Assembly (NCBI GenBank): GCA_022760475.1
Contig: JALEFZ010000005.1
Location: 124,001 to 188,000, forward strand
DNA: 64,000 nt
Source: Bacteroidia bacterium
GTDB lineage: Bacteria > Bacteroidota > Bacteroidia > J057
Reading direction: 5' to 3'
This document shows, in pieces, positions 3,328 to 31,020 of this stretch. Position numbers and translations under genes: made by a program. The notes beneath the pieces were generated by a model, which worked only from the letters and a program-made list of their open reading frames with translations, was not told where the DNA came from and searched no databases. How positions within the stretch are numbered: the first letter of the stretch is position 1; each line of letters starts with the position of its first letter.

Positions 3328-3801
3328 TCAGCATTCATATTCGATGAGGATACTTCTACACTTGTCTTTTTTATTTTCAAACTGATGGTCATAGAGGGAA
3401 ATCCCTACATTGAGACATGTGGAATCTCTTCCCAGGGTTTCTACCAGTGCTAGGCCTCGTTTCCATGCTTCTTCCTGGTTCAGGTAGGCATTGACAATCT
3501 TGGTTGGTACATAGAATTGGATTTTTTGAATCCCCAGAAATTGACTCCCAACAACATTCATATAATGGAATTCCACATTGATGTGGTAGTCAAGTACCTC
3601 AGGGAAATATTCTCTCAATTGATTGATAACTCCCACAACATCTGTATGGTCATAGTCTGTTTTTACAGGTTTGGTAAGGACATCAGGATTTTCGTAGACG
3701 ACTTCAAGCACTTTTTTTTCGATGACCTTCTGCTCAATGACTTTTTGTTCACAAGCCTGAAGGGTAAATAGCAAAATGAGAATTAGGATGGAGTTTTTCA
3801 T
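3328..3801 (-). CDS. Small lipoprotein of unknown function
   Basis: 157 residues. The start is a lipoprotein signal (hydrophobic ILILILLFTL followed by lipobox LQAC, Cys at about 17). Directly after the Cys comes a short internal repeat built from the unit EQKVI/EKKVL, repeated three times, which probably forms a charged linker between the lipid anchor and the folded part. The rest contains alternating hydrophobic residues of a small alpha/beta domain and several Cys near the C-terminus (ending RSILIEYEC). I do not recognise the family. The gene stands alone, convergent with the APCDD1-like gene. Confidence 0.7.
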   Translation of the reverse strand: MKNSILILILLFTLQACEQKVIEQKVIEKKVLEVVYENPDVLTKPVKTDYDHTDVVGVINQLREYFPEVLDYHINVEFHYMNVVGSQFLGIQKIQFYVPTKIVNAYLNQEEAWKRGLALVETLGRDSTCLNVGISLYDHQFENKKDKCRSILIEYEC

Positions 3802-4072
3802 GGATTTTTTGAGTTTAAATAAATATAGCTGTGCTTTATCCTAATATGAATAATGATAGCGGAATTTATGGTAAAAAGGCACGCTTTGATTATGCGGTGC
3901 TTTAGAAAAAATATGTGCAGAGAACTAGATTTGGCTAGCTGAAAACCGATGCATTATTTCAATCTTTCTACAAATTCTCATCTATTCCTAACAATCTCTC
4001 ATTCTATTACCACATTCCCGACTTAGCTGTTAAATTGGCCTTCGAATCACTTAGTCATAATTCAACACTTCT

Positions 4073-5395
4073 ATGGAATTTTTTGAAGTACAGGGAGGCC
4101 ATCCCTTGCATGGTGAAATTGTCCCACAAGGCGCAAAGAATGAAGCCCTTCAGGTGCTCTGTGCCGTATTGCTTACCCCCGAAAAAGTTACCCTTTCCAA
4201 TCTCCCCGATATTGTAGATGTAAACCGCCTCATTGATATCCTAAGTTCTATGGGTGTGGAGGTAGAAAAGCTGGGAGAAGGAACCTATAGTTTTGAGTCC
4301 AAAAACATTGACCTTGACTATATGGAGACCGAAGCCTTCTGGCAAAAAGCAAAAAAGCTCCGTGGTTCCATCATGCTGGTAGGGCCCCTGCTCGCCCGAT
4401 TCGGGAAGGCATTTATCTCAAGACCTGGGGGAGATAAAATTGGTCGTAGAAGACTGGATACCCATTTCTGGGGCTTCCAGCAGTTAGGTGCAGAGTTCGA
4501 ATACGATGATAAACTAGGTATCTTCAAAGTATATTCGGAAAATCGCCTTAATGGTACCTACATGCTCCTGGATGAAGCCTCTGTAACAGGAACAGCCAAC
4601 ATTATCATGGCTTCTGTTCTGGCTAAAGGAACAACCACCATCTACCATGCTGCTTGCGAACCATACTTGCAGCAATTGTGCAAGATGTTGAACCGCATGG
4701 GCGCAAAAATAGAAGGTGTTGGATCCAACCTTATTACAGTACATGGTGTAGAAGCCCTGCATGGTTTTGAAGAGCCACACAGGTTACTGGCCGATATGAT
4801 TGAGGTAGGCTCATTCATTGGAATGGCAGCCATGACAAGGGGAAGTATCCGCATTAAGGATGCCGATGTGGCTTACCTTGGCAACATCATTGAGGTATTC
4901 CGCAGGATGGGGGTTAAAATGGAAATTGAAGGAAATGATATCCAGGTCTTACAGCAGGATCAGCATGTCATTGAGACTTTCATTGATGGAAGTATCCTGA
5001 CAGTTTCTGACCATCCATGGCCAGGTTTTACCCCTGACCTGTTGAGTATTGTGTTGGTTCTGGCTACTCAGGCCAAAGGCTCGGTATTGATTCATCAAAA
5101 AATGTTCGAAAGCCGTCTTTTCTTCACAGACAAGTTGATTGACATGGGAGCGCAAATCATCCTTTGTGATCCACACCGCGCCACTGTGATTGGACTTGAA
5201 AGAAAAGTTGCCCTGAAAGGAATCTCTATGACCAGCCCTGATATCCGCGCAGGGGTAGCTTTGCTTATAGCCGCCATGTCTGCAGATGGAACCTCCAAAA
5301 TCTCCAATATTGAGCAGATTGATCGAGGTTACCAAAACATAGAACACAGGTTGAATGCCCTGGGAGCAAAGATTACCCGCCACAAAGAGGCATAG
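4073..5395 (+). CDS. murA: UDP-N-acetylglucosamine 1-carboxyvinyltransferase (MurA)
   Basis: 440 residues, a little above the usual 420-435. It catalyses the first committed step of peptidoglycan synthesis, moving enolpyruvate from PEP to UDP-GlcNAc in the cytosol. The N-terminal QGAKNEAL motif (Lys22, Asn23) is present, as are the inside-out alpha/beta barrel repeats and the conserved DRGY...IE segment near the end. The active-site loop reads RPGGDKIGRR, so the usual catalytic Cys (Cys115 in E. coli) is Asp121 here. Asp-type enzymes are known to be active and insensitive to fosfomycin. The gene is monocistronic, closed by the strong hairpin at 5420-5463. A start at 4073 fits the family N-terminus. 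Confidence 0.96.
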   Translation: MEFFEVQGGHPLHGEIVPQGAKNEALQVLCAVLLTPEKVTLSNLPDIVDVNRLIDILSSMGVEVEKLGEGTYSFESKNIDLDYMETEAFWQKAKKLRGSIMLVGPLLARFGKAFISRPGGDKIGRRRLDTHFWGFQQLGAEFEYDDKLGIFKVYSENRLNGTYMLLDEASVTGTANIIMASVLAKGTTTIYHAACEPYLQQLCKMLNRMGAKIEGVGSNLITVHGVEALHGFEEPHRLLADMIEVGSFIGMAAMTRGSIRIKDADVAYLGNIIEVFRRMGVKMEIEGNDIQVLQQDQHVIETFIDGSILTVSDHPWPGFTPDLLSIVLVLATQAKGSVLIHQKMFESRLFFTDKLIDMGAQIILCDPHRATVIGLERKVALKGISMTSPDIRAGVALLIAAMSADGTSKISNIEQIDRGYQNIEHRLNALGAKITRHKEA

Positions 5396-19939: not shown

Positions 19940-22069
19940 TTAACGTTTCCACCAAGCTTTTTTCTTTTTCTTCTTCGGAACCTTCAACTCCGCCAGTTCT
20001 ATACATATCTGAAGTTCTTCTTCAGTGAATATTTCCTGTTTCAATAAGTCTGTCTGAACCTCCTCCGATTGAATTGCTAAGGCTTCCAAGTCCATTTCTC
20101 CCTGAAGATAAAACAGCAGATCGCGCTTTGCCAGTTCTTGCTTGCCAAGCTGATAGTAAGCAAGCCCACGAATTTTTAAAGTTTGAGGATCTTCTGCTTG
20201 GGAGCTAAATAGCTTCGATGCACAGCTCAAGGCAAGGCTCCAATTTTTTACTTGATATGCCATGAGCATACTGCTATAAATAGCCTCCAGGTCGAATGGG
20301 TTCAATTTACGGATAGAGTCGTATGAGTAAATGGCATTTTGGTATTGTCCTAAGGCTTCTTGTAAACTGCCCCTTAACTTCCATGCTTCAATAACATTGG
20401 GAAAGTGAGTCAGCAAAGTATCCAGGAACTCCAGTCCAAGTTTGTTTTCTCCCAATGCATTGGCCACATAAGCTGCATCAAGTAGAATTTCGACATTAAT
20501 TCCCATGGCAATACCCTTCTGGAAATATTCAAGGCTTTTTTCCAAGTCAGATTTTTCGATCTCCCGAAGTCCTAATTGCCTAAACAGATCCGGAGATTCA
20601 AAGCCCAACTCAAGGGCTTTCAGGAAATATCTTTCTGCCTCTGCTCCCCCTTCTCTTGAGGCGAGAATCATTCCTTTGAAATGGTGAGCTTCGCCATTTT
20701 GAGGCTCAAGTTTAAGGGCATCGTCCAGGTCTTTTTCTGCTTCTTCGTTTCTCATTTGAAGCATAGAAAGTTGGGCTCTGTCTACCAAGAGGTTCACTTC
20801 AGGTCCCTCCCTTTCCAAATGCCTTGTGATGGTTTCCCATGCTCTTTTTGTCTGACCTGAAGAGACAAGTGATTCGATAAGCCCCCTGATCAGGAGGATA
20901 TTGTCGGGTTGGATTTTCAATGCCGCCTGCCAATCGCTCAAAGCGTCCTCAAAACGCTCCAGCCGCATATACGCCTGGGCTCTTGTGGCAAGAAAAGTTG
21001 GATCTGTTGCATTTTTCTTGATTTGATCCTCAAGGTAACCCAGTATATCCTCGATTTTCTGATAATACTCAGGCTTCTCAGGCGCCATCCCCAGGCCATG
21101 GGAGAAATCACTCAATGCTTCCAGCATTTCGCCTCTGCCCAAAAAGATCAGCCCTCTTTCATAGTAAGGAGTGGCCGTTTCAGGATGGAGAGTTATGGCC
21201 TTGGATAAAAATTGAAATCGTTCTTTCTCATCCTCTGTCAATTCGGCCTTGAAGGTATAGACGTCCGATAGTTCGGGATTGAGTTGTTCTGCCCTTGCGA
21301 TCAGACGCATTGCGGCCTCCGGTCTGCCAAATACTTTTTCAACTTTAGCCTGAAAGTAATAAACCCAGGGCTCTTCAGGAGATAGTTTTTCAGCCAATCT
21401 GCTGGCTTCCATCGCTTCTTCCCTTCGGTTAAGCATCGCCAGGACATAAGCTTTTTGTACCAGAACAAGATGGTCGCTGGGATATATCTTCAGGTATTGC
21501 TCAAAAAACTTCAGAGCCGTCAAACCATCTTCCTCCTCCATGGCCTTCTGCGCATGCCTCAGCAGTTCATAATGGCCTTCCTCTGTTTCCCCTTCATTAA
21601 GTGCCTTCAACCAGATGTCTACTTGTTCACGAAGGGTCGATTCCTCAGGGCCTGACATCTGTAGAAAACTCTCAAACAGTTGTTTTGCCTGTTTTTCTTC
21701 CTTCAACTGCATCAAGGAATAGCCTTTAGCCATGTAAACCCGAAAATATCCAGGGTCAAGCTCCATGACCTTGTCATATGCCTCTAACGCTTCTTCGTAC
21801 CTGGTCATGGCAGCCAGGGATATTCCTCTGTTGTAATGGGAGTGGGTATGAGTCTCTTCTATGGCAAGGGCTTGATCAAGGTACGCTAATGCCCTGGGGT
21901 GATCGCCGCCCAATTGGGCAAGGGCTCCCAGGTTGGCATAGACTTCGAATCCTTCAGGATTGACTTCAACGGCTTGTTCAAATGCCTGCTGAGCTTCTGC
22001 TAACTTGCCTTCTTCTGCAAATTGGAGTCCCTGGCTTAACCAATTATCATATTGCGCACTATTGTCCAT
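19940..22069 (-). CDS. Large cytosolic TPR protein
   Basis: 709 residues made almost entirely of tetratricopeptide repeats, roughly 17-18 units, for example NPEGFEVYANLGALAQLGGDHPRA and a unit starting with THSHYNRGISLAAM. There is no signal peptide or membrane segment, so it is expected in the cytosol. TPR arrays are protein-interaction scaffolds; no catalytic domain is present. The C-terminus is very basic (VPKKKKKKAWWKR), suggesting contact with nucleic acid or the membrane surface. It starts 9 bp after the end of the PIG-L deacetylase gene on the same strand, which suggests one operon and a possible physical partnership. Confidence 0.85.
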   Translation of the reverse strand: MDNSAQYDNWLSQGLQFAEEGKLAEAQQAFEQAVEVNPEGFEVYANLGALAQLGGDHPRALAYLDQALAIEETHTHSHYNRGISLAAMTRYEEALEAYDKVMELDPGYFRVYMAKGYSLMQLKEEKQAKQLFESFLQMSGPEESTLREQVDIWLKALNEGETEEGHYELLRHAQKAMEEEDGLTALKFFEQYLKIYPSDHLVLVQKAYVLAMLNRREEAMEASRLAEKLSPEEPWVYYFQAKVEKVFGRPEAAMRLIARAEQLNPELSDVYTFKAELTEDEKERFQFLSKAITLHPETATPYYERGLIFLGRGEMLEALSDFSHGLGMAPEKPEYYQKIEDILGYLEDQIKKNATDPTFLATRAQAYMRLERFEDALSDWQAALKIQPDNILLIRGLIESLVSSGQTKRAWETITRHLEREGPEVNLLVDRAQLSMLQMRNEEAEKDLDDALKLEPQNGEAHHFKGMILASREGGAEAERYFLKALELGFESPDLFRQLGLREIEKSDLEKSLEYFQKGIAMGINVEILLDAAYVANALGENKLGLEFLDTLLTHFPNVIEAWKLRGSLQEALGQYQNAIYSYDSIRKLNPFDLEAIYSSMLMAYQVKNWSLALSCASKLFSSQAEDPQTLKIRGLAYYQLGKQELAKRDLLFYLQGEMDLEALAIQSEEVQTDLLKQEIFTEEELQICIELAELKVPKKKKKKAWWKR

Positions 22070-22078
22070 GTGTGATTA

Positions 22079-22717
22079 TTATAGGCCATTCCACCGGATC
22101 ACCTCAAAGGCTTCTGCTGCCTTAACTCCTGCTTCCATTCCTCTGAATTTGGCCATAATCTCCAAGCCCTCCAAGGAAAATGGATCTGGGAATGTCCTGT
22201 TTTCATGGGTATAAATAGCAAAGGCTGTCAACTTTTGTTCCAGATATGCTTCAATATCAACATATAGCTGTGCAGGAAAAGCCTTACCATTCCAATTGGC
22301 TGAGGCTGGAGTTTCACAACCCAGTATGTTAATCGGTTTTTTGCGAGGTCGCCCTATGATCTTGGCTACTTGATGTATAATCCTGTGGTCTTGGTTCAAG
22401 TCCATAGAAGAATGGGTAATAATCAGGTCAGGGAGTTCATCAAGTTCTTCCATGGCAGCATTGACTATCTGAGCTTGGGGGATGCTTTCGAAGGCCTGAT
22501 CAGGAAAGTCAAGGGTCTTATAGTTCTTTATTCCAAGGATGGCACATGCCTTATCCAGGGAAGATCTGTTGTCATCCTGTACTTTTCTCATCTTGATAAT
22601 CCCGTCAGAGGCAATGAGCAACTGGACATCATGACCTTGGGACAATAAGTATGGGATGCTGCCTCCTGCACCAAGGCTTTCATCATCTGCATGTGCCAAA
22701 AGAATGAGGACTTTCAT
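22079..22717 (-). CDS. PIG-L/LmbE family deacetylase
   Basis: 212 residues. The zinc-binding start reads LLAHADDESLGAGG (the family AHPDDE motif with Ala for Pro), and the second metal site lies in ITHSSMDLNQDHRIIHQ (HxxxxxDHR...H). Such enzymes remove acetyl groups from GlcNAc-type substrates, for instance in GPI, mycothiol, bacillithiol or lipopolysaccharide-like pathways. The substrate here is unknown. Bacillithiol synthesis (BshB) is a possibility in Bacteroidota, but BshB usually keeps HPDD and its partner genes are not nearby. Divergent from the TPR histidine kinase (99 bp). Confidence 0.85.
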   Translation of the reverse strand: MKVLILLAHADDESLGAGGSIPYLLSQGHDVQLLIASDGIIKMRKVQDDNRSSLDKACAILGIKNYKTLDFPDQAFESIPQAQIVNAAMEELDELPDLIITHSSMDLNQDHRIIHQVAKIIGRPRKKPINILGCETPASANWNGKAFPAQLYVDIEAYLEQKLTAFAIYTHENRTFPDPFSLEGLEIMAKFRGMEAGVKAAEAFEVIRWNGL

Positions 22718-22816
22718 ATTTTGATTTTATATCCTTTGAGAAATGAACCAACAGTCATTTGTTTATTCAGGAAAAGTGTAATATTTTCTTGATTTATAAT
22801 TGAATTTGCGGACCCA

Positions 22817-24721
22817 ATGAGGAGAACTTTCGGCATTTATTTACTCTTATCAATCACCTTCTATCTCTGTCCTGGCAATTACTTGTTTGCAGGATTGGGA
22901 GATAGCCTGTCCAGTGAATTGGCTGGAATAAAAGATCATTCCGAAAGGTATGACTTCGCCTATCAGCAAGCTAAAAAATACCTCTTTAGCAAGCCTGAAA
23001 TTGCAAAGGCTTACTGCAAGTTATGTATTTCTGGGAGTCGTGAGCAAAATTTACCCTTCAAAGAGTATAGTTGCCTGTTAAGCCTGGGTACGCACTTCCT
23101 AATTCTTCCAGACCCTGATTCGGCTAAATGGGCTTATGATAAAGTGATTGACGGTTTCCCCAAGCACATGGATAGCCTCTTGGTTGCCAGGGCTACTAAA
23201 AACATGGGCTTGGTTTACTTCAGGTCTGGTGATTTTCAACAGGCCTTAGCGGATTATCAGAAAGCAAGTAAAATTTTTTATAAGTTAGATAGACCCGTCT
23301 ATTATGCCAATCTGATGGACATTGGCAATGTATTCCTTCGTCTTGAGGATAATGAAAATGCAAGACAAAACCTCTGGGAAGCACTGAATTACATTGATCC
23401 GGAAAAAAATACGAGGTGGTATGCAAATACACTTAATAGCTATGGCATTCTTCTGGAGAATGAAAAAAAATATGACTCCCTTGCACATTATTATAGAAGG
23501 TCATATGTGTTGAAGAAGAAGCTAAACGATATTTATGGTCAGTCTGTATCGCTAAATAATATCGGTAATATTTTTTCAAGGTACACACCCAATCCTGACT
23601 CTGCCATCAAATATTACAAACTAGGCATTGAAATAGCCGAAAAGTATAGGTTGAAAAAGGAGTTGGCACAGTTATATCTGAATATTGCCAATGCCTATGA
23701 GACCCGTAAGCAATACGAGTTGGCGGCAAGCCTTAGAGATTCTGCCTTACAGATAGGCATTTCAACTAAGAACTATGAAACCCAAAGAAAGGCCATTTGG
23801 GGCTTAGCAATGGTGAAAGGTAAGTTTTTGGGAGAATATGCGGAAGCATTTGAGTTGCTTCGTAAGCATCGCTATATCGAAGATACGGTCTTTAACAGGG
23901 GAAAATTGGAAGCAATTGAAGAGATGAATGCCAAATATGAAAGCGCCGAAAATCAGCGAAGGTTGGCTGAAGTGAAGGCAGATCTTCGCCAAAGGCAGTT
24001 TTTGTCTACTCTGTTTGGTGGGATTTCCTTGCTTCTTGCCCTGCTTGGTTTCCTGATTTGGTTTCGAGGACGAAGCCTTAGAAGGGCAGCCGTCCAGGAA
24101 ACCAAAATTGTCGAACAAGAAAAAGGCTTAAAGGCCATAATTAAGGCAACTGAGGAAGAAAGAAGAAGAATTGCCCGGGATTTGCACGATGGCATTGGGC
24201 AGGAATTGGCAGCACTCCAATTGGCCTTTGACTCTAAAGGGGGTAGGCAGGACGCCAGTTTATCTTTACGCCTACAAGAGGCAAGCCAAAAACTCAGGAC
24301 GGTATCTCATCAAATGATGCCAAGGGCACTGGAACTTGCAGGTTTAGAGGCCGCACTTCGAGAATTGGTCGAAAAAAGCATGACAGGAACCCCCATCAAT
24401 GCCCAATTTGATGCCTTTGGAATTCCCAAAGACCTGGATAAGGACATAAGCTTGGTAATTTATCGGGTAGCCCAGGAGCTACTTAATAATGTCCTGAAAC
24501 ATTCAAGCGCGTCAAATGTAGATATTCTTCTAACCCACAGCTCTCAAAAAATAAGCCTAGTCATAGAGGATGATGGGAACGGCTTTAAAAGCGAGGAAAT
24601 AGAGGAAGGCCTTGGCTTGTCCAATATGCGGAGTCGGCTTGCAACAGTTAATGGAGAACTCCAATTTGAGTCAGGGGAAGATCGGGGCTTAAGGGCAATT
24701 GCTAACATTCCATTATCATGA
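22817..24721 (+). CDS. TPR-containing sensor histidine kinase, NarX/HisKA_3 type
   Basis: 634 residues. Signal peptide 1-25 (ending YLFA); TPR repeats at about 60-340 in the predicted periplasmic part (for example MGLVYFRSGDFQQALADY); coiled coil about 365-395; membrane segment about 395-413 (FLSTLFGGISLLLALLGFLIW). The HisKA_3 dimerisation domain has its phospho-acceptor His457 in RDLHDGIGQE. The HATPase domain (about 530-634) has the N-box VAQELLNNVLKHS and the G-box GLGLSNMRSRL. It probably senses a periplasmic cue and phosphorylates the regulator at 24718, whose start overlaps its stop by 4 bp (translational coupling). Its layout parallels the adenylate cyclase at 14317: TPRs, one membrane helix, output domain. 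Confidence 0.93.
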   Translation: MRRTFGIYLLLSITFYLCPGNYLFAGLGDSLSSELAGIKDHSERYDFAYQQAKKYLFSKPEIAKAYCKLCISGSREQNLPFKEYSCLLSLGTHFLILPDPDSAKWAYDKVIDGFPKHMDSLLVARATKNMGLVYFRSGDFQQALADYQKASKIFYKLDRPVYYANLMDIGNVFLRLEDNENARQNLWEALNYIDPEKNTRWYANTLNSYGILLENEKKYDSLAHYYRRSYVLKKKLNDIYGQSVSLNNIGNIFSRYTPNPDSAIKYYKLGIEIAEKYRLKKELAQLYLNIANAYETRKQYELAASLRDSALQIGISTKNYETQRKAIWGLAMVKGKFLGEYAEAFELLRKHRYIEDTVFNRGKLEAIEEMNAKYESAENQRRLAEVKADLRQRQFLSTLFGGISLLLALLGFLIWFRGRSLRRAAVQETKIVEQEKGLKAIIKATEEERRRIARDLHDGIGQELAALQLAFDSKGGRQDASLSLRLQEASQKLRTVSHQMMPRALELAGLEAALRELVEKSMTGTPINAQFDAFGIPKDLDKDISLVIYRVAQELLNNVLKHSSASNVDILLTHSSQKISLVIEDDGNGFKSEEIEEGLGLSNMRSRLATVNGELQFESGEDRGLRAIANIPLS

Positions 24722-25368
24722 GGAAGAAAATAATCCTTGTAGATGACCATGAACTCTTCACAGAAGGCTTGGTACAAATGATCGAAGAAGAAACAGACCT
24801 GGAGGTCGTGGCTACCTATACCAATGGTTTGCAGGCCTTAGAACAGGTTCCCAAGCATCCCGACCTGGACCTGCTGTTGATGGACCTGGATATGCCCATC
24901 ATGGATGGGATGAAAGCAAGTAAAGAACTTCGAGCCAAGATGCCTGAATTACCCATTGTTATACTGAGTATGCACCACGAAAAAGTCATCGTACAAAAAC
25001 TGGTTCAGCAAGGTGTGAATGGCTACATCCTGAAGAGCAGCAGCAAAAAGGAGTTTTTGCAGGGAATATATGCAGTATTGAAGGGGATAAGGTTTTATTC
25101 AAGCCGATTGACTGAAGGGCTCATTCAGGAAGAAAAAGTCTTGCCGAACGCTCAAAGTTCCCTCAAATCTCTGGCAATGCTGACAGAAAGGGAAGTAGAG
25201 GTGCTTAAACTACTGGCTGAAGGGAATACGAGCAAAGAAATCGCAGATGTATTGGCCCTGTCTCCACAAACTGTGGATGGATATCGAAAAGCCCTGATCA
25301 AAAAGCTGAATAGCAAAAATGTGGCAGGTTTGATTCGAATTGCATTTAGGGAAGGCCTGATAAGTTGA
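24718..25368 (+). CDS. NarL/FixJ-type response regulator
   Basis: 216 residues. Receiver domain 1-120 with acidic pocket Asp9-Asp10 (ILVDDHEL), phospho-acceptor Asp56 (LLLMDLDMPIMDG) and the conserved Lys after YILK. The LuxR-type helix-turn-helix (about 150-213) shows LTEREVEVLKLLAEGNTSKEIAD and SPQTVDGYRKALIKKL. It is the cognate partner of the kinase at 22817, with which it overlaps by 4 bp. A transcription factor; targets are not visible. The degenerate receiver gene starts 86 bp downstream. Confidence 0.95.
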   Translation: MRKKIILVDDHELFTEGLVQMIEEETDLEVVATYTNGLQALEQVPKHPDLDLLLMDLDMPIMDGMKASKELRAKMPELPIVILSMHHEKVIVQKLVQQGVNGYILKSSSKKEFLQGIYAVLKGIRFYSSRLTEGLIQEEKVLPNAQSSLKSLAMLTEREVEVLKLLAEGNTSKEIADVLALSPQTVDGYRKALIKKLNSKNVAGLIRIAFREGLIS

Positions 25369-25453
25369 GCCCCCCAAAAATGGGAACATTTATACTGAAA
25401 AACGGGGTTTCGAATTCTTACGATAGAAGCGACCTTGCAGGAAAGCATGTGTA

Positions 25454-25864
25454 GTGAAGAGAATCATCCTGGTTGACAGGCAAAAGTTATTTGCCGAAGG
25501 CATTGCGAGTTTGCTGGAAAAAAGTCCCAATTGGAAAGTCATCGATATTTTCCATGATGGGGCAGAGGCGATCCGGGAAGTACCTGGTAGGTACGCAGAT
25601 TTACTTATCATGTCCTTGGATCTGGCTCACCAAAATGGACTTGAAGCCTGCAAAGCCATTCACAAACTTTGCCCCAAGCTCCCAATCATCCTTTGGGAAT
25701 CGTATTGGTCATCAGACTTGCTTAGGATTGCCAGAAAGAATGGGGCTGGAACCATTCTCTCCAAAGACATTTCTTTTCCTGAACTGGCATATGCGGTAGA
25801 ATTAAGTATCCGCGGTTCTCATTATTTTTCTCCTTCCATCACCGAATATTTGCTTAATTCCTGA
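25454..25864 (+). CDS. Stand-alone degenerate receiver (pseudo-receiver) domain protein
   Basis: 136 residues from a GTG start; the upstream frame is blocked by a nearby TAG. It aligns along its whole length with the receiver of the neighbouring regulator, from ILVDRQKLFAEGI to SPSITEYLL, and ends where that protein enters its DNA-binding domain. Two residues needed for phosphotransfer are changed: the second acid of the metal pocket is Arg9 (VDRQ for VDDH), and the phospho-acceptor position is Ser54 (IMSLDLAHQNG for LMDLDMPIMDG). The Lys near residue 114 is kept. It cannot be phosphorylated in the usual way and has no output domain, so it may modulate the upstream kinase/regulator pair by binding. 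The frame is intact and a terminator follows. Confidence 0.8.
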   Translation: MKRIILVDRQKLFAEGIASLLEKSPNWKVIDIFHDGAEAIREVPGRYADLLIMSLDLAHQNGLEACKAIHKLCPKLPIILWESYWSSDLLRIARKNGAGTILSKDISFPELAYAVELSIRGSHYFSPSITEYLLNS

Positions 25865-25894
25865 TGTAATTCCTTTTATGATTGAAATAAAAAT

Positions 25895-25923
25895 GCCCCA
25901 AGCAAGGATTTCCTTGTTGGGGC
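25895..25923. terminator. Bidirectional intrinsic terminator
   Basis: Stem formed by GCCCCAA-G-CAAGGA and TCCTTG-TTGGGGC with one bulge and a tight loop. It separates the convergent pseudo-receiver gene (ends 25864) and outer membrane protein gene (ends 25948). T-richness is modest on both sides. Confidence 0.7.
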
Positions 25924-25947
25924 GAAAAGGGGGTTGGTGGGAATTTT

Positions 25948-26838
25948 TTATAAGGATCTTATCAAACCTGGGATTTTCTTTGTGGCAGCTTTTCTTTCTT
26001 TGTAAGGACCTTCATAATAGTTGGCTCCCGATTGCAAGGCGAAGGTAAACATTAGCCTCATGAAGCCGTTGGCACCGGGCATTTTACCCAATTCGAATGT
26101 CGTAATCACCGGACATAGACCACCTGTGGCCTCTATATCAAAGCCCAGACGAAACCCACTGCCACTCTCAACCGGTGCTGATGCGTCCACTGCATTGACT
26201 CCACCAAACATAAAGTCAAGGTAATAACCCATAGCCAAGCCTTGGTCTTTATCTCCATATCCTTCCAGTTCCAGCTTCGCGTATCTTCTTCCCGTTCTAC
26301 TCAGTCCGACAAATACCCCAGTTACGCTTTGTGTATTACTTTGTAGAGGGAAATTGTTATGAAAAGCACCGGCTCGGATGCTCCTTTCTACCACACGATT
26401 GTAGGGAAAATTGATGTATTTGGTGGTATTACCTGTTGACTTCACATTGAACCTGGATTCTCGGATGTTTCCAGATCCATCTGTAAGGTTGATTCCTTTT
26501 CTCAGCCATACATACTCACCATGGGCTTCTGCGATAATTCCTCCCAGTTTTTTGATCCCACTTGCATTTTCGTCTTCCCGACTCTTGTTAAGGTACATGG
26601 CACTACTCAGTCTTCCGTGTACCCTCAGTCGATCAACAGGTCTTATGTAAAAGTCTACTCCAGGACCTCCCATGGGTTCCCCATCTATAAAGAAGAAGTC
26701 TAGTGGAGAGATGCCAATAGATACCTTGGCTGATTTGGGGGAGTTCGTTTTAACTTTATAGTTCACAGTTTGGCCACTGGAAAACTGAGCCATAAAAGCA
26801 AAAAAGAACAAGGTAATGATGATTTTTGAAGTTTTCAT
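25948..26838 (-). CDS. Predicted outer membrane beta-barrel protein, unknown function
   Basis: 296 residues with a signal peptide (1-22, ending SSGQ). The mature part alternates hydrophobic and polar residues with frequent aromatic and Gly positions (for example VSIGISPLDFFFIDG, RYAKLELEGYGD, FMRLMFTFALQSG), as expected of an outer membrane barrel of about 10-14 strands. No family is recognised and the C-terminus does not end in Phe but in a short basic tail (KKIPGLIRSL). It stands alone, convergent with the receiver gene, and upstream of a gene-free stretch containing a dispersed repeat. Confidence 0.6.
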   Translation of the reverse strand: MKTSKIIITLFFFAFMAQFSSGQTVNYKVKTNSPKSAKVSIGISPLDFFFIDGEPMGGPGVDFYIRPVDRLRVHGRLSSAMYLNKSREDENASGIKKLGGIIAEAHGEYVWLRKGINLTDGSGNIRESRFNVKSTGNTTKYINFPYNRVVERSIRAGAFHNNFPLQSNTQSVTGVFVGLSRTGRRYAKLELEGYGDKDQGLAMGYYLDFMFGGVNAVDASAPVESGSGFRLGFDIEATGGLCPVITTFELGKMPGANGFMRLMFTFALQSGANYYEGPYKERKAATKKIPGLIRSL

Positions 26839-27017
26839 TTCTTAAGCAATTGTAATTAAGACTTGTGTGTCAGATTGATTAATTATCTGATGCACAAGTA
26901 AGTCCTACTCGCCAATTGCCTGAATCCCTATTTTTGGGGGAATGCCAACCAAAATTAGGGGACAGCGTGAAGAATGATCAATTTGAAGTGACTTGAGATA
27001 CTGGTGCAGACTTGCTT

Positions 27018-27096
27018 AGAAGCTGTTTAAGTTTAGATTTTTGAGTTTGCAGGTAGGAATTTAAGGTTCAGAGGAAATGATTTTTTAACAGCTTCT
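27018..27096 (+). repeat. Dispersed intergenic repeat, family 2, copy A
   Basis: About 79 bp bounded by AGAAGCTG at the left and CAGCTTCT at the right, so the ends form an inverted repeat. Internal blocks GATTTTTGAGTTT and GAGGAAATGATTTTT recur in reverse orientation at 48601-48667. The right end overlaps the stop codon of the gene at 27096. Confidence 0.7.
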
Positions 27097-27857
27097 TAAT
27101 CAATATTTACTTCTATGGTCTGGTGGTTGCTGTCCGCCTGGATATCGCCGATCAACTCCCAATCTCCTAGTTCGTCTGAGACCCATCTTTTTTGAAGGGG
27201 TAGGCTTTTGTTGTTTTGAAGGAGTTCTTGTTGGTTAATGTCCCAAATCTGGTACCCAATGAGGTCGTCCTTATCTATCAGTGCCCATATATTTTGGAAA
27301 ATGTTTTGAGCTTGCTTTACAGCTTCTTCAACAGCCAGCTCTATGCCATCCACAAAGGACTCGACCTTGGCCTGAAAATACTTCCTGATGGATTCCTGAA
27401 TATTTTCTACGTCTATGATCTTTACATCGAAGTCCCGTATGGCCTGGTTTACTGCTTTTTGTACATAATCATTCAATGCCTTATGCCCTGCTTCGGCACC
27501 TGCCTTACTTACATTTTCCTTTTCCATCAAAACTGCTACCACACCTATGATTCCAGGAATTTCATAATTGAAGAATGGTACCTCAATGGGTCGTAAGGTC
27601 GTTTCAAATAGGCCTACGTCCAGTGGGATATGAATGGTCTCCCCTGAGTTTACTGACTCTATCCCCAGGTTTCCGTGGCTACCTTCAGAAAATTTAAAAA
27701 ATGCCTCTCCCTTCAACTCAAACTCCTTGCTGAGCGAAACCTGCTCTCCATCTATCTTGAAGAAAATGGTCCAAAGGTAAGGCTCGGTTTTGCGCCAACC
27801 TGTGCCTTCCTGATGACAAATCAAGCGTTTTAGGTGGGCATTTATGGGAAGTGACAT
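27096..27857 (-). CDS. Hypothetical protein, unknown function
   Basis: 253 residues, no signal peptide. The first half is beta-rich (a WTIFFKIDGEQVSL strand pattern and EGSHGNLGIESVNSGETIHIPLD). A predicted alpha-helical middle follows (about 115-190, ENVSKAGAEAGHKALNDYVQKA...), then a short C-terminal beta part ending DSNHQTIEVNID. The middle is rich in Asp, Glu and Gln and could pack as a helical bundle. I do not recognise a family; the layout vaguely recalls proteins that combine a ligand-binding beta-sandwich with a helical oligomerisation region. Its stop codon lies inside the end of the repeat at 27018-27096. The ribosomal protein operon starts divergently 148 bp away. Confidence 0.6.
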   Translation of the reverse strand: MSLPINAHLKRLICHQEGTGWRKTEPYLWTIFFKIDGEQVSLSKEFELKGEAFFKFSEGSHGNLGIESVNSGETIHIPLDVGLFETTLRPIEVPFFNYEIPGIIGVVAVLMEKENVSKAGAEAGHKALNDYVQKAVNQAIRDFDVKIIDVENIQESIRKYFQAKVESFVDGIELAVEEAVKQAQNIFQNIWALIDKDDLIGYQIWDINQQELLQNNKSLPLQKRWVSDELGDWELIGDIQADSNHQTIEVNID

Positions 27858-27954
27858 GCTAAAGTGAATGTTGGAAGATGTGGGATTAAATTAAGTCAAA
27901 ATAAGATATAAGGACAATTTGCCTAATAAATAATGGTCAATTCAGTTCTAATTA

Positions 27955-27985
27955 TTGCAAAGCAATCATTGATTGTTTAACTTTG
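27955..27985 (+). promoter_or_regulatory. Promoter of the rpsF-rpsR-rplI operon
   Basis: TTG (27955-27957) and TAACTTTG (27978-27985) with 20 bp between them match the Bacteroidota -33/-7 pattern. The predicted start of transcription is about 15 bp before the rpsF ATG, leaving almost no room for an S6/S18-binding leader. Confidence 0.75.
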
Positions 27986-28005
27986 CAGTCCATTTTTCAA
28001 TTATT

Positions 28006-28392
28006 ATGATGGATATCAAACCCGTCTCATTTAAACATGAATATGAGACAGTGTTCATTCTCGCTCCCGATCTGCCTGAGAATGGACACCAAAAGGCAGT
28101 GGACAAATTTGTCCAAATGATTAAAGACAACGATGGGAAAATCCACAACATCGAGCGCTGGGGCGTGAGAAGGCTGGCTTATCCCATAAGAAGAAAGACA
28201 AGCGGTTACTACGTTTACATCGAGTTTGAGGGTAAGCCTGAATTTGTAGCTGAGTTGGAGCAGAACTACCGTTACGACGACGCTGTGATGCGCTACCTGA
28301 CTGTGAAATTGGACAAGCACTCATTGGCCTTTAATGTAAAGCGTCGTGAGCAAGGATTTGGACTAAGAAAAGACGCAAAAACCGGTAACTAG
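28006..28392 (+). CDS. rpsF: 30S ribosomal protein S6
   Basis: 128 residues from ATG 28006 (a second ATG follows directly at 28009). The open frame reaches back to 27973, but that extension overlaps the -7 promoter element and lacks family similarity. Motifs: [16 protein letters not shown] at the start, a central [17 protein letters not shown] block and [18 protein letters not shown]6 binds the central domain of 16S rRNA as a heterodimer with S18, whose gene follows after 14 bp. The C-terminal 15 residues are basic. Confidence 0.97.
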
Positions 28393-28406
28393 TAAATCGT
28401 AACATC

Positions 28407-28706
28407 ATGGCTCAAGGAAGAGGAAGAGGACGAGGCAGAGGTAGAGGAAATATCGGACCCACAGCGGTTAACCGAATCAAAACCGAAGCTCGTCAGAAAA
28501 AGTACTGCCGCTTTAAGAAAGCCGGCATCAAGTATATCGACTACAAAGACCCTGACTTCTTATTGAAGTTTGTCAACGAACAGGGAAAGATCCTGCCCCG
28601 TCGTATAACGGGAACCAGCTTGAAGTTCCAGCGCCGCCTGTCTGTGGCTATTAAGCGCGCCCGCCACTTGGCCCTTTTACCATTTGTAACCGACGAATTG
28701 AAGTAA
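28407..28706 (+). CDS. rpsR: 30S ribosomal protein S18 with Arg-Gly repeat extension
   Basis: 99 residues. The S18 core is clear ([20 protein letters not shown], then [19 protein letters not shown] and ARHLALLPF). The N-terminus carries an unusual [10 protein letters not shown] tract at about residues 4-14 before the core, an RGG-like RNA-binding tail. S18 pairs with S6 on 16S rRNA. It lies between rpsF and rplI in the standard order; the rplI ATG follows after 3 bp. Confidence 0.97.
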
Positions 28707-28709
28707 GCA

Positions 28710-29156
28710 ATGGAAATCATCCTTAAACAACCCGTCAAGAATCTTGGGGACAAAGACGATGTGGTAAAAGTGAAGCCTGGCTATGCACGTAATTACCTCA
28801 TTCCTCAAGGGATGGCCATCTTGGCCACCGCTTCCGCCAAAAAAGAATTGGCAGAAAAGATCAGACAGCGCTCTCACAAACTTGAGTTCATCAAGAACCA
28901 GGCGCTTGAGGAATCTGAAAAGCTGAATGGATTGAAGCTATCTATCGAAACCCTTGCTGGTGCCGATGGAAAACTTTTCGGTTCTGTTACTGCCCTTCAG
29001 GTTGCTAATAAATTGAAAGAGAAAGGCTTCGAAATCGACAGAAAAACCATCACCCTCGACGACATCCGTAATACAGGAGAATATACAGCTATCATTCACC
29101 TGCACAAGGAAGTCAAAGCAGAGGTGGAGATTGAGGTAATCCGCAAGGAAGACTAA
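28710..29156 (+). CDS. rplI: 50S ribosomal protein L9
   Basis: 148 residues, standard length. The N-terminal domain starts MEIILKQPVKNLGDKDDVVKV and contains PGYARNYLIPQGMA, the 23S rRNA-binding loop. A long connecting helix (about 43-75) leads to the C-terminal domain (ADGKLFGSVTALQVANKL). L9 helps keep the reading frame. Last gene of the rpsF operon, closed by the terminator at 29178-29209. Confidence 0.97.
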   Translation: MEIILKQPVKNLGDKDDVVKVKPGYARNYLIPQGMAILATASAKKELAEKIRQRSHKLEFIKNQALEESEKLNGLKLSIETLAGADGKLFGSVTALQVANKLKEKGFEIDRKTITLDDIRNTGEYTAIIHLHKEVKAEVEIEVIRKED

Positions 29157-29177
29157 TCATCTCTTTCCATAAAAAAG

Positions 29178-29209
29178 AAAACTCCTGGCCTCAAACCAGG
29201 AGTTTTTTT
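29178..29209 (+). terminator. Intrinsic terminator after rplI
   Basis: An 11-bp stem AAAACTCCTGG / CCAGGAGTTTT with a 7-nt loop is followed by T residues. The A-run at its left also allows use by the convergent gene ending at 29230. Confidence 0.9.
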
Positions 29210-29229
29210 AGTGGCTGACTTAAGCTGCT

Positions 29230-31020
29230 TTATTTAACTTTTACCAACTTCTTTCTGACAGAGAAGTCTATACCCTTGATACTTAGGTAGTAAATTCCTG
29301 CATTCATGCCTGTCATATCCATTTCAAGTATGCTACCTGCTTCGCTCTCCAGCCTTTGTTGCATATAAATCCTTCCGCTAAGGTCTTGGAGCTGTACATC
29401 GACTGTCCCCATATCAGCTTCCATTTTGACGGTCATCATGCCATTCGTTGGATTGGGGAAGGTGGATACAAGCGATGTCTCAGTCGTAAAGGTCAAAGGG
29501 GGTCCACTGCCTCCAACCGCAGGCTCACAAAGCTCATACAAGAATACCGTATCATTTTCAATAGAAATGGGGTAATTGCCTATCTGAACCCTAAATGAAG
29601 TCAGACCTGTGAGGCTTCCAATCTGGGTCTCTGAAAAAGGCCCTTCAAAAGGAACATTTACCTCCTGGAAAGTTGCACTGTGGGCAACTGCATCCAGTTT
29701 TTGTCCATAACAACTCCCCGTGTCTGTAGATGCAGGATATATTTTACTGACACTCAGCCCAGCCTTTGAATCTCCTATTTGTTCCTCATAATAAAAGGAA
29801 GGGTAAGAAAGCAGCAAGGAGTTATCACTTCCGTTGGCTATGTTCAGCCGATCGTGGAAATTGCCTCCGCCACCCAACTGGGCATTTGCCTGGAGTACCT
29901 CACCTTGTTCGTCTACATCTACCCTTATGAAGGGAGCCGCAAGTCCTTCAGAGAGGTCAAGGACTACATCGCTATTTTGGTCAAGAGAAGGGGCAAAGAT
30001 CGAAGTGCCGTTGTCAGTGTCCCCAATGTAAAAGGGTACCAGGTCAAATGTAGTGAAGCTCTCAGAGGTGTACACCTGGGTAAAGTTTACATTGCCAATA
30101 CTGTCTAACTCTGTGAGGACTATTGGAAAGTACCCTATGATAGCAATCCGTGTAGAAGATCCATCTGATACAATGTCAGTTGGTAAAAACTCCTGATGGT
30201 CAATCAGGGCTTTTTTATAGATAAAATTATCAGAACTATCCACTTTAAAGGCAGCTACGCTGATGATGTGTTTTCCATTCAAGGCAGAATCAATGCCTAC
30301 AATTCCTGCGGCAACGCTCAACTCATCATTCTCATTCAAACTCAATATGGGACTGTGGATGAGGCCGTTAGGTCCTCTGAGGATAAAAGACTTTTTCTCC
30401 AGAAAATTTCCGTTCCCGTCTAGGGAAATAAGGCCTACGCCAGAGAAACTCCCATTTGGGTTGCTGTGACTGAAATACGAATCTGCTGTGGCGATTAGAA
30501 CTTCTCCATCGCTTTTGACAAATAGATCTACCCGATAAGACCTCATGCTATGATTGGGATTTGGGTCGATTGACTTCACCCATAAGATGTTTCCAAGGGC
30601 ATCGATCTTTATCAGTATTTCTATCTGGCTAAAGTTTTGACGTGAGCTGAAGATTAAATAGGCACCTCCATCTGGTGAAGCAGCCAGTTCAATGCCAGGG
30701 CTGGAAAAAATAATATCTTCACCCAAAGAAATCTTTCTCGTCCAAATGCTGTCTCCTACAGAATTGGTTTTATATAAGCTTATGCCTACATCGCTTTTGT
30801 TATCCAGAGAGTATTGATATCGGAATGCGTTTAGGAGATCTCCATTTACCAACTCTATTATTTGAGAATTGCTGATATGCTTTTCGACATCAACTTGTTT
30901 GCCCAGTACCACCTCTTTTCCAGGAGAAGGAATGATGGCTTTGATAAATCCTGTATTGGATTGGCCAAACACATTGCCCAACCAGCAACCCAATAGGATG
31001 AAAGTAATCATTTGTTTCAT
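29230..31020 (-). CDS. T9SS-secreted protein of unknown function
   Basis: 596 residues. Signal peptide 1-19 (ending VFGQ). The body consists of beta-rich repeats of the kind seen in delayed beta-propellers: SVGDSIWTRKISLGEDIIFSS, PDGGAYLIFSSRQN and DALGNILWVKSIDPN recur with variations about every 50-60 residues over 50-400. Similar repeats are common in Bacteroidota surface proteins annotated as SBBP-repeat or propeller proteins. The C-terminal 80 residues are a T9SS type A sorting domain (TFPNPTNGMMTVKM to VRKKLVKVK). It is exported to the surface, but no enzymatic residues are recognised. Convergent with the rplI operon. Confidence 0.78.
   Translation of the reverse strand: MKQMITFILLGCWLGNVFGQSNTGFIKAIIPSPGKEVVLGKQVDVEKHISNSQIIELVNGDLLNAFRYQYSLDNKSDVGISLYKTNSVGDSIWTRKISLGEDIIFSSPGIELAASPDGGAYLIFSSRQNFSQIEILIKIDALGNILWVKSIDPNPNHSMRSYRVDLFVKSDGEVLIATADSYFSHSNPNGSFSGVGLISLDGNGNFLEKKSFILRGPNGLIHSPILSLNENDELSVAAGIVGIDSALNGKHIISVAAFKVDSSDNFIYKKALIDHQEFLPTDIVSDGSSTRIAIIGYFPIVLTELDSIGNVNFTQVYTSESFTTFDLVPFYIGDTDNGTSIFAPSLDQNSDVVLDLSEGLAAPFIRVDVDEQGEVLQANAQLGGGGNFHDRLNIANGSDNSLLLSYPSFYYEEQIGDSKAGLSVSKIYPASTDTGSCYGQKLDAVAHSATFQEVNVPFEGPFSETQIGSLTGLTSFRVQIGNYPISIENDTVFLYELCEPAVGGSGPPLTFTTETSLVSTFPNPTNGMMTVKMEADMGTVDVQLQDLSGRIYMQQRLESEAGSILEMDMTGMNAGIYYLSIKGIDFSVRKKLVKVK

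Follow-up and report, generated by a model that had tools for sequence, protein, structure and literature searches.

Receiver domains of the PF00072 family that lack the phospho-acceptor aspartate are known as pseudo-receivers (PsR) or aspartate-less receivers (ALR). In the accessible part of one study of ALRs, the first acid was kept in 65%, a basic residue occupied the position of the conserved lysine in 70%, and the second acid was acidic in 29%; serine made up 15% of the substitutions at the acceptor (PMC4395418). Competition and heterodimer formation are already in print as ideas for pseudo-receivers generally, and as far as the available text goes both models were proposed for CmrT of the CmrRST system in Clostridioides difficile, for which expression-driven models have also been published (PMC12632262). 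The same text describes dimerisation of NarL/FixJ receivers on alpha1-alpha5 and gives the WhiI/BldM heterodimers as a precedent. A literature search that covered few subscription journals did not find a stand-alone pseudo-receiver of NarL descent next to its own kinase/regulator pair. Here we describe a candidate for such a gene in the window, the whole stretch of 64,000 nt of Bacteroidia DNA that was analysed. Judged by its sequence, the gene is a member of the PsR/ALR class, and its features suggest that the product probably tunes the neighbouring pair by binding.

The locus and the residues of the pseudo-receiver

The gene is the third in a row on the plus strand. The first gene (22817..24721) encodes a TPR-sensor histidine kinase of 634 aa with TPR, HisKA_3 and HATPase_c matches in Pfam; a hydrophobic stretch precedes the kinase part, as seen by eye, and the named matches to the protein are Bacteroidota records. 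Its stop overlaps the start of the second gene (24718..25368), which encodes a NarL-type response regulator of 216 aa (Response_reg and GerE in Pfam) with an intact catalytic set consisting of the DD pair, the acceptor Asp56, Ser and Lys. After a spacer of 85 nt (25369..25453) follows the pseudo-receiver gene (25454..25864), an open frame with a GTG start that encodes 136 aa. The protein matched Response_reg (PF00072) at E 1.3e-14 and 54.7 bits against a cut-off of 30.2; no other Pfam family was matched at E 0.001, and GerE was absent. These results agree with an earlier sequence-only reading, which had described an intact frame without a DNA-binding domain next to an intact kinase/regulator pair.

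No terminator-like site was found in the spacer, and none of the three sigma-70-like sites in 22600-26100, where shuffles averaged 6.2, fell inside it. The spacer also showed no structured RNA (fold z 0.09), an Rfam search of 22000-29300 gave zero matches, and the motif TAnnTTTG was not found on the plus strand of 22601-26000. Co-transcription of the pseudo-receiver with the pair is likely, judging from this arrangement. A remnant of a tandem duplication was also considered for the spacer and rejected: it holds two 8-nt repeats, but its likeness to the 3′ end of the regulator gene was at chance level, with 292 of 500 shuffles giving an equally good local alignment. A hairpin at about 25895-25923 (fold z -2.5), which a simple terminator scan did not list, separates the gene from a convergent gene (25948-26838) that faces it and ends at 25948. 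The hairpin had been read as the terminator of the pseudo-receiver gene, and it is real; however, with the T-rich side on the minus strand, it rather resembles a terminator of the convergent gene, which it may mainly serve.

The pseudo-receiver aligned over its whole length with the receiver of the adjacent regulator at 28% identity (E 2e-15 in a single comparison). Three of the five catalytic positions were lost, as Arg9 replaces the second metal-binding Asp, Ser54 replaces the acceptor Asp56, and Glu82 stands at the position of the conserved Ser, while the first acid (Asp8) and the conserved lysine (Lys104) were kept. Among the remaining positions compared, the Pro at D+4 was replaced by Ala58 and the Tyr at K-3 by Ile101, and Gly62 at D+8 was kept. 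The whole-length alignment, Ser54 and Arg9 had been recognized before; Glu82, Ile101 and Ala58 add to the losses. With the second acid, the acceptor and the Ser/Thr all replaced, the protein falls outside the CheY-like single-domain receivers. As described in the available text of two papers, loss of these three residues with the first acid and the lysine kept is a usual pattern of a pseudo-receiver (PMC4395418, PMC12632262). An internal salt bridge between Arg9 and Glu82 may substitute for metal and phosphate.

The replacement of the acceptor was compared across 153 receiver rows that passed E 1e-4; they came from the window and from 140 loci fetched in 13 genomes. Asp was present in 149 rows, Gly in three and Ser in one, the pseudo-receiver itself. 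The rows with Gly were full-length NarL-type regulators in genomes G010 and G002 (L206:4163-4807; L187:1745-2416 and L179:4024-4848, both on the minus strand). The same genome yielded 17 further stand-alone receivers for comparison, one of them a contig-edge fragment, and all 17 kept Asp and Lys.

Several measures bear on whether the frame encodes a functional protein. Over 134 codon pairs, 35, 57.5 and 30% of the first, second and third codon positions were identical to those of the regulator, and GC3 was 0.463 compared to 0.491 in the regulator and 0.426 in the kinase. In a neutral simulation that started from the present regulator (Jukes-Cantor, no indels), the frame stayed open in 0.9% of the runs at a mean protein identity of 35% and in 0.35% at 25%. 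An AlphaFold2 model built on a five-row alignment had a pLDDT of 90.6 and a pTM of 0.85, predicting that the receiver fold is kept. The best match of the model in the PDB was a LuxR-family receiver (TM 0.94), the best matches were NarL-type receivers (3cz5, VraR, LiaR and DesR), and complexes of DesR with DesK, a kinase of the HisKA_3 type, were among the first 16 (5iuk, 5iuj). A recognized PF00072 domain, an absent acceptor Asp and a fold kept in the model are the features of the pseudo-receiver class. By these measures the frame is a real gene and not a chance ORF, and codon pattern and model argue for selection at the protein level over most of its history, which would leave room for a recent loss of function.

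Origin and distribution of the pseudo-receiver

By profile score and trees the receiver is of the NarL type; a NarL-receiver profile built without it gave it 79.7 bits. A careful tree with 59 receivers grouped the pseudo-receiver with its own regulator and the nearest relative of that regulator, found in G009 with a receiver 58.5% identical, at 99/93 (UFBoot/SH-aLRT). The same grouping was obtained at 99/91 in a tree of 66 rows, and a quick tree of 111 rows also placed the pseudo-receiver with this pair (SH-aLRT 93, not starred). This grouping makes local duplication of the regulator, with its DNA-binding domain lost afterwards, the best-supported origin on present sequence evidence, though it is not proven. 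The length of the pseudo-receiver branch, 1.99 compared to 0.59 for the regulator in the 59-receiver tree, is a caveat. No stand-alone receiver was found beside the G009 relative in the 6.5 kb examined.

At nine of the 31 positions diagnostic for the regulator/G009 pair, the pseudo-receiver carries the residue of the pair; the mean in 107 other receivers is 3.7, with two reaching nine or more. Identity to its own regulator was uneven, with 29 of 79 positions up to beta4 and 9 of 54 after it, a split chosen after the marker-site result had been seen. An equally lopsided identity was found in one of the 107 other receivers against the regulator and in 14 against the G009 relative.

Two other placements were considered. 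Forcing the pseudo-receiver into a clade of degenerate stand-alone receivers, described below, lowered the log likelihood by 18.6 (AU p 0.107), so that a joint clade was not rejected; the 59- and 66-row trees did not place it with that group, whose profile gave it 21.9 bits, and membership in the group does not appear to be the best reading. A union with a clade of Asp-bearing stand-alone receivers was 11.7 lnL lower and was rejected (AU p 0.043). The duplication that the sequence-only reading had proposed is thus supported by the trees but not proven.

Orthologs of the pseudo-receiver were found in none of the 100, 22 or 395 genomes searched, overlapping sets that take in 13 genomes of the family, 22 of the order and 395 of the class. 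The best match outside its own genome scored at most 71.7 bits compared to 295 for the pseudo-receiver itself. At E 0.001, 96 of 100 genomes (its own included) gave matches, and among the matches listed all other frames were at least 193 aa long except one of 153 aa (G051:C263). This exception is a stand-alone receiver whose catalytic residues look intact by eye, and a NarL pair was not seen in the 5.5 kb around it. At 1e-9 the order gave matches in 17 of its 22 genomes, and at 1e-12 the class gave them in 42 of 395, with all other frames longer than 200 aa; the class-wide searches, like a phylum search described below, took the best ten candidates per genome at most and may miss weak members. 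The kinase was matched at 1e-50 in three of the 22 order genomes, its own included. Among the genomes searched, the pseudo-receiver gene thus seems to be lineage-specific.

Stand-alone receivers beside other HisKA_3/NarL pairs

To place the locus among its relatives, NarL-type regulators were surveyed in the family. From 147 GerE matches, 11 were left out (nine with frames outside 200-300 aa), and the survey held 111 distinct Response_reg+GerE regulators, of which 108 had more than 700 nt downstream and 68 an adjacent HisKA_3 kinase. A stand-alone receiver lay within 600 nt of the regulator in 4 of 111 cases: the window pseudo-receiver, one in G001 on the same strand (L116), one in G005 in convergent orientation (L216), and an Asp-bearing one in G001 at a contig edge (L117). 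When all 148 regulators were counted, G051 and G358 also had a stand-alone receiver nearby; two that touched the edge of a stretch (L032 and L117, both Asp-bearing) were dropped from this count. The loci beyond the family were fetched through regulator matches and are a biased sample.

Eight stand-alone receivers, found in G051, G091, G001, G005, G317, G420, G718 and G692, were degenerate (L235:1498-1911, L238:1492-1914, L237:1495-1857, L236:1501-1893, L251:1489-1911, L266:1486-1905, L305:2908-3297 and L307:2954-3361). They span four families and two classes, and each has a HisKA_3 kinase and a regulator as neighbours; seven lie downstream in the same orientation, and the one in G005 is convergent. 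A profile seeded with the G051, G001 and G005 proteins matched 146 of 395 class genomes at 1e-10, mostly through full regulators. The strongest four hits of this search were stand-alone (G051 210.6, G005 193.4, G001 176 and G091 134.9 bits, three of them seeds), and G317 ranked at 62.9 bits amid regulators at 60-70 bits. A family search at 1e-14 matched 5 of 35 genomes and added G420 at 72.9 bits. The phylum search matched 101 of 395 genomes, and above 63.1 bits it gave only full regulators with frames of more than 200 aa. Seven short-frame candidates were opened, namely four of 136-155 aa from the phylum search, two from the class search and one from the 100-genome search, and a 354-aa frame and other longer frames of the phylum search were left unopened. 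Two of the seven were degenerate, G718 and G692, which belong to another class of the phylum; they scored 61.0 and 61.9 bits, whereas the NarL-receiver profile gave them 52.1 and 55.5. In the remaining five, the catalytic residues looked intact by eye.

All eight fell on one side of a branch (97/91) in the 66-row tree; their branches were long, and a warning was raised that two of them could have been falsely drawn together. The seven neighbouring regulators that were included formed one clade at 98/95 with short branches, and this regulator clade appears to be better evidence than the receiver branch for an old three-gene unit. Pfam leaves the group mostly unseen, as seven of eight members were below the PF00072 cut-off and only G001 passed (35.4 bits). 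The group resembles the window pseudo-receiver in being stand-alone, degenerate and placed beside a HisKA_3 kinase and a regulator. In contrast to the window gene, which shows the reverse, the six aligned members have lost both metal-binding acids and the lysine and kept the acceptor acid: the DD pair reads G-A, G-A, S-S, G-F, G-C and G-Y, the lysine position F, F, I, T, I and I, and the acceptor is D or E in all six. The regulator ORF in G420 (L266:784-1302, 172 aa) ends inside the HTH, which is either a real truncation or an assembly error, and it precedes one degenerate and one intact stand-alone receiver.

Asp-bearing receivers were found in the same position. Five of them (L240:737-1102, L242:591-1007, L252:741-1208, L255:714-1145 and L264:728-1126, all on the minus strand) form a clade at 100/99 together with a part-degenerate one at L227. 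Each follows a NarL-type regulator, all five catalytic residues were kept in five of the six, and in the stretches examined a HisKA_3 kinase was seen at L252, L255, L264 and L227 but not at L240 and L242. The receiver at L227 (2257-2712, in G358) follows a HisKA_3/NarL pair and keeps Asp and Lys, with the second acid changed to Thr and the Ser/Thr to Leu. In G387, a receiver-only gene (L306:2839-3249, minus strand) follows a HisKA_3/NarL pair whose regulator lies at 3445-4080 on the same strand. Its product shares 51% identity with that regulator, joins it in the tree at 99/89 and has catalytic residues intact by eye; the gene would be a second local duplicate without the HTH, phosphorylatable as judged by its residues, and an intact parallel to the window gene. 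Intact stand-alone receivers also follow a large kinase without a GerE regulator in G187 and G329, and one in G755 has no pair in the stretch examined. Since stand-alone receivers were repeatedly recruited to this slot, the presence of several output-less lineages favours an action on the neighbouring pair over chance. The sequence-only reading had called the receiver repurposed, which is plausible: the frame and the protein-level constraint survive three of five catalytic losses, and other lineages fill the same slot.

Proposed action and comparison with known systems

The reading that we favour, at a probability of roughly 40%, is that a receiver-only paralog has lost phosphorylation on Asp, docks on the kinase and competes with the regulator. 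Once the adjacent NarL-type regulator had been duplicated locally and the copy had lost its DNA-binding domain, the protein would act through binding, and binding is the likely route because the pseudo-receiver is without the means for the usual phosphate chemistry. Co-expressed with the pair, it would dock on the HisKA_3 helices in competition with the regulator, which would damp phosphotransfer or set a threshold; the sign of this effect, like co-transcription and kinase binding, is what we infer. The sequence-only reading had suggested a decoy or inhibitor of the neighbouring system, which the protein may be. Competition for the kinase is consistent with the intact and constrained frame, the usual catalytic losses of a pseudo-receiver, the grouping with its own regulator, the match of the model to DesR-DesK complexes, the lopsided identity, the stand-alone receivers beside other pairs and the parallel in G387. 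The lopsided identity is weak against the G009 relative, where 14 others are alike; this, the long branch and the absence of an ortholog from the genomes searched count against the reading. Because NarL receivers dimerise on alpha1-alpha5, according to the available literature, and DesR meets DesK, sequence does not separate binding to the kinase from binding to the regulator. The pseudo-receiver might therefore bind the regulator instead, in heterodimers that block dimerisation, as an anti-activator, or stabilise the active form. The close kinship of the two receivers in the trees, the alpha1-alpha5 dimers and the WhiI/BldM precedent (PMC12632262) speak for this rather doubtful alternative, but identity to the regulator is lowest after beta4.

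The same divergence after beta4 could point to a partner outside the two-component system, with the protein serving as a constitutive adaptor and the operon setting its level, similar to the expression-driven models for CmrT (PMC12632262). This is quite unlikely, as there is no candidate partner, and the recurrence of the position next to such pairs speaks for a partner close by. That the gene is a relic, a duplicate once useful and now decaying without a present function, is an unlikely reading that would explain the long branch, the three catalytic losses and the absence from every relative searched. It fits poorly with zero stops or frameshifts at 28% protein identity, saturated third and conserved second codon positions, a GC3 close to that of the regulator and the kinase (0.463 against 0.491 and 0.426), and a confidently predicted fold. 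A functional phospho-receiver with Ser54 or a neighbouring acid as its acceptor is very improbable: Asp8 and Lys104 remain and an Asp lies two residues past Ser54, but the second acid is Arg, the Ser/Thr is Glu and the Tyr is lost.

More tentatively than competition at this one locus, we suggest that HisKA_3/NarL systems of the phylum repeatedly gain a third, output-less and degenerate receiver as a dedicated inhibitor or tuner, with at least two origins: the window gene would descend from its own regulator, and the second source would be the old, mostly Pfam-invisible lineage of eight beside one regulator clade. If true, this would be a recurrent three-part form of two-component signalling, and the mostly Pfam-invisible third gene would turn an idea about one gene into one about a design that recurs.

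The window gene shares with described pseudo-receivers the receiver fold, the lack of the acceptor Asp, a non-acidic second acid position, and the kept first acid and lysine (PMC4395418, PMC12632262, as far as the available text goes). It differs from them as a receiver-only gene beside the kinase and regulator of its apparent descent, and it offers a small case in which models of competition and heterodimer formation can be tested. RitR of Streptococcus pneumoniae is alike in that its Lys10 and Asp81 correspond to Arg9 and Glu82 and its conserved lysine is kept; in contrast, the available description gives RitR an Asn acceptor, a kept Tyr and a DNA-binding domain, compared to Ser, Ile and none in the window gene (PMC4395418). 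CmrT is likewise an atypical regulator encoded with a normal kinase/regulator pair (PMC12632262). CmrT is reported to be a full OmpR-family regulator, whereas the window gene is receiver-only and, on the best-supported origin, NarL-derived.
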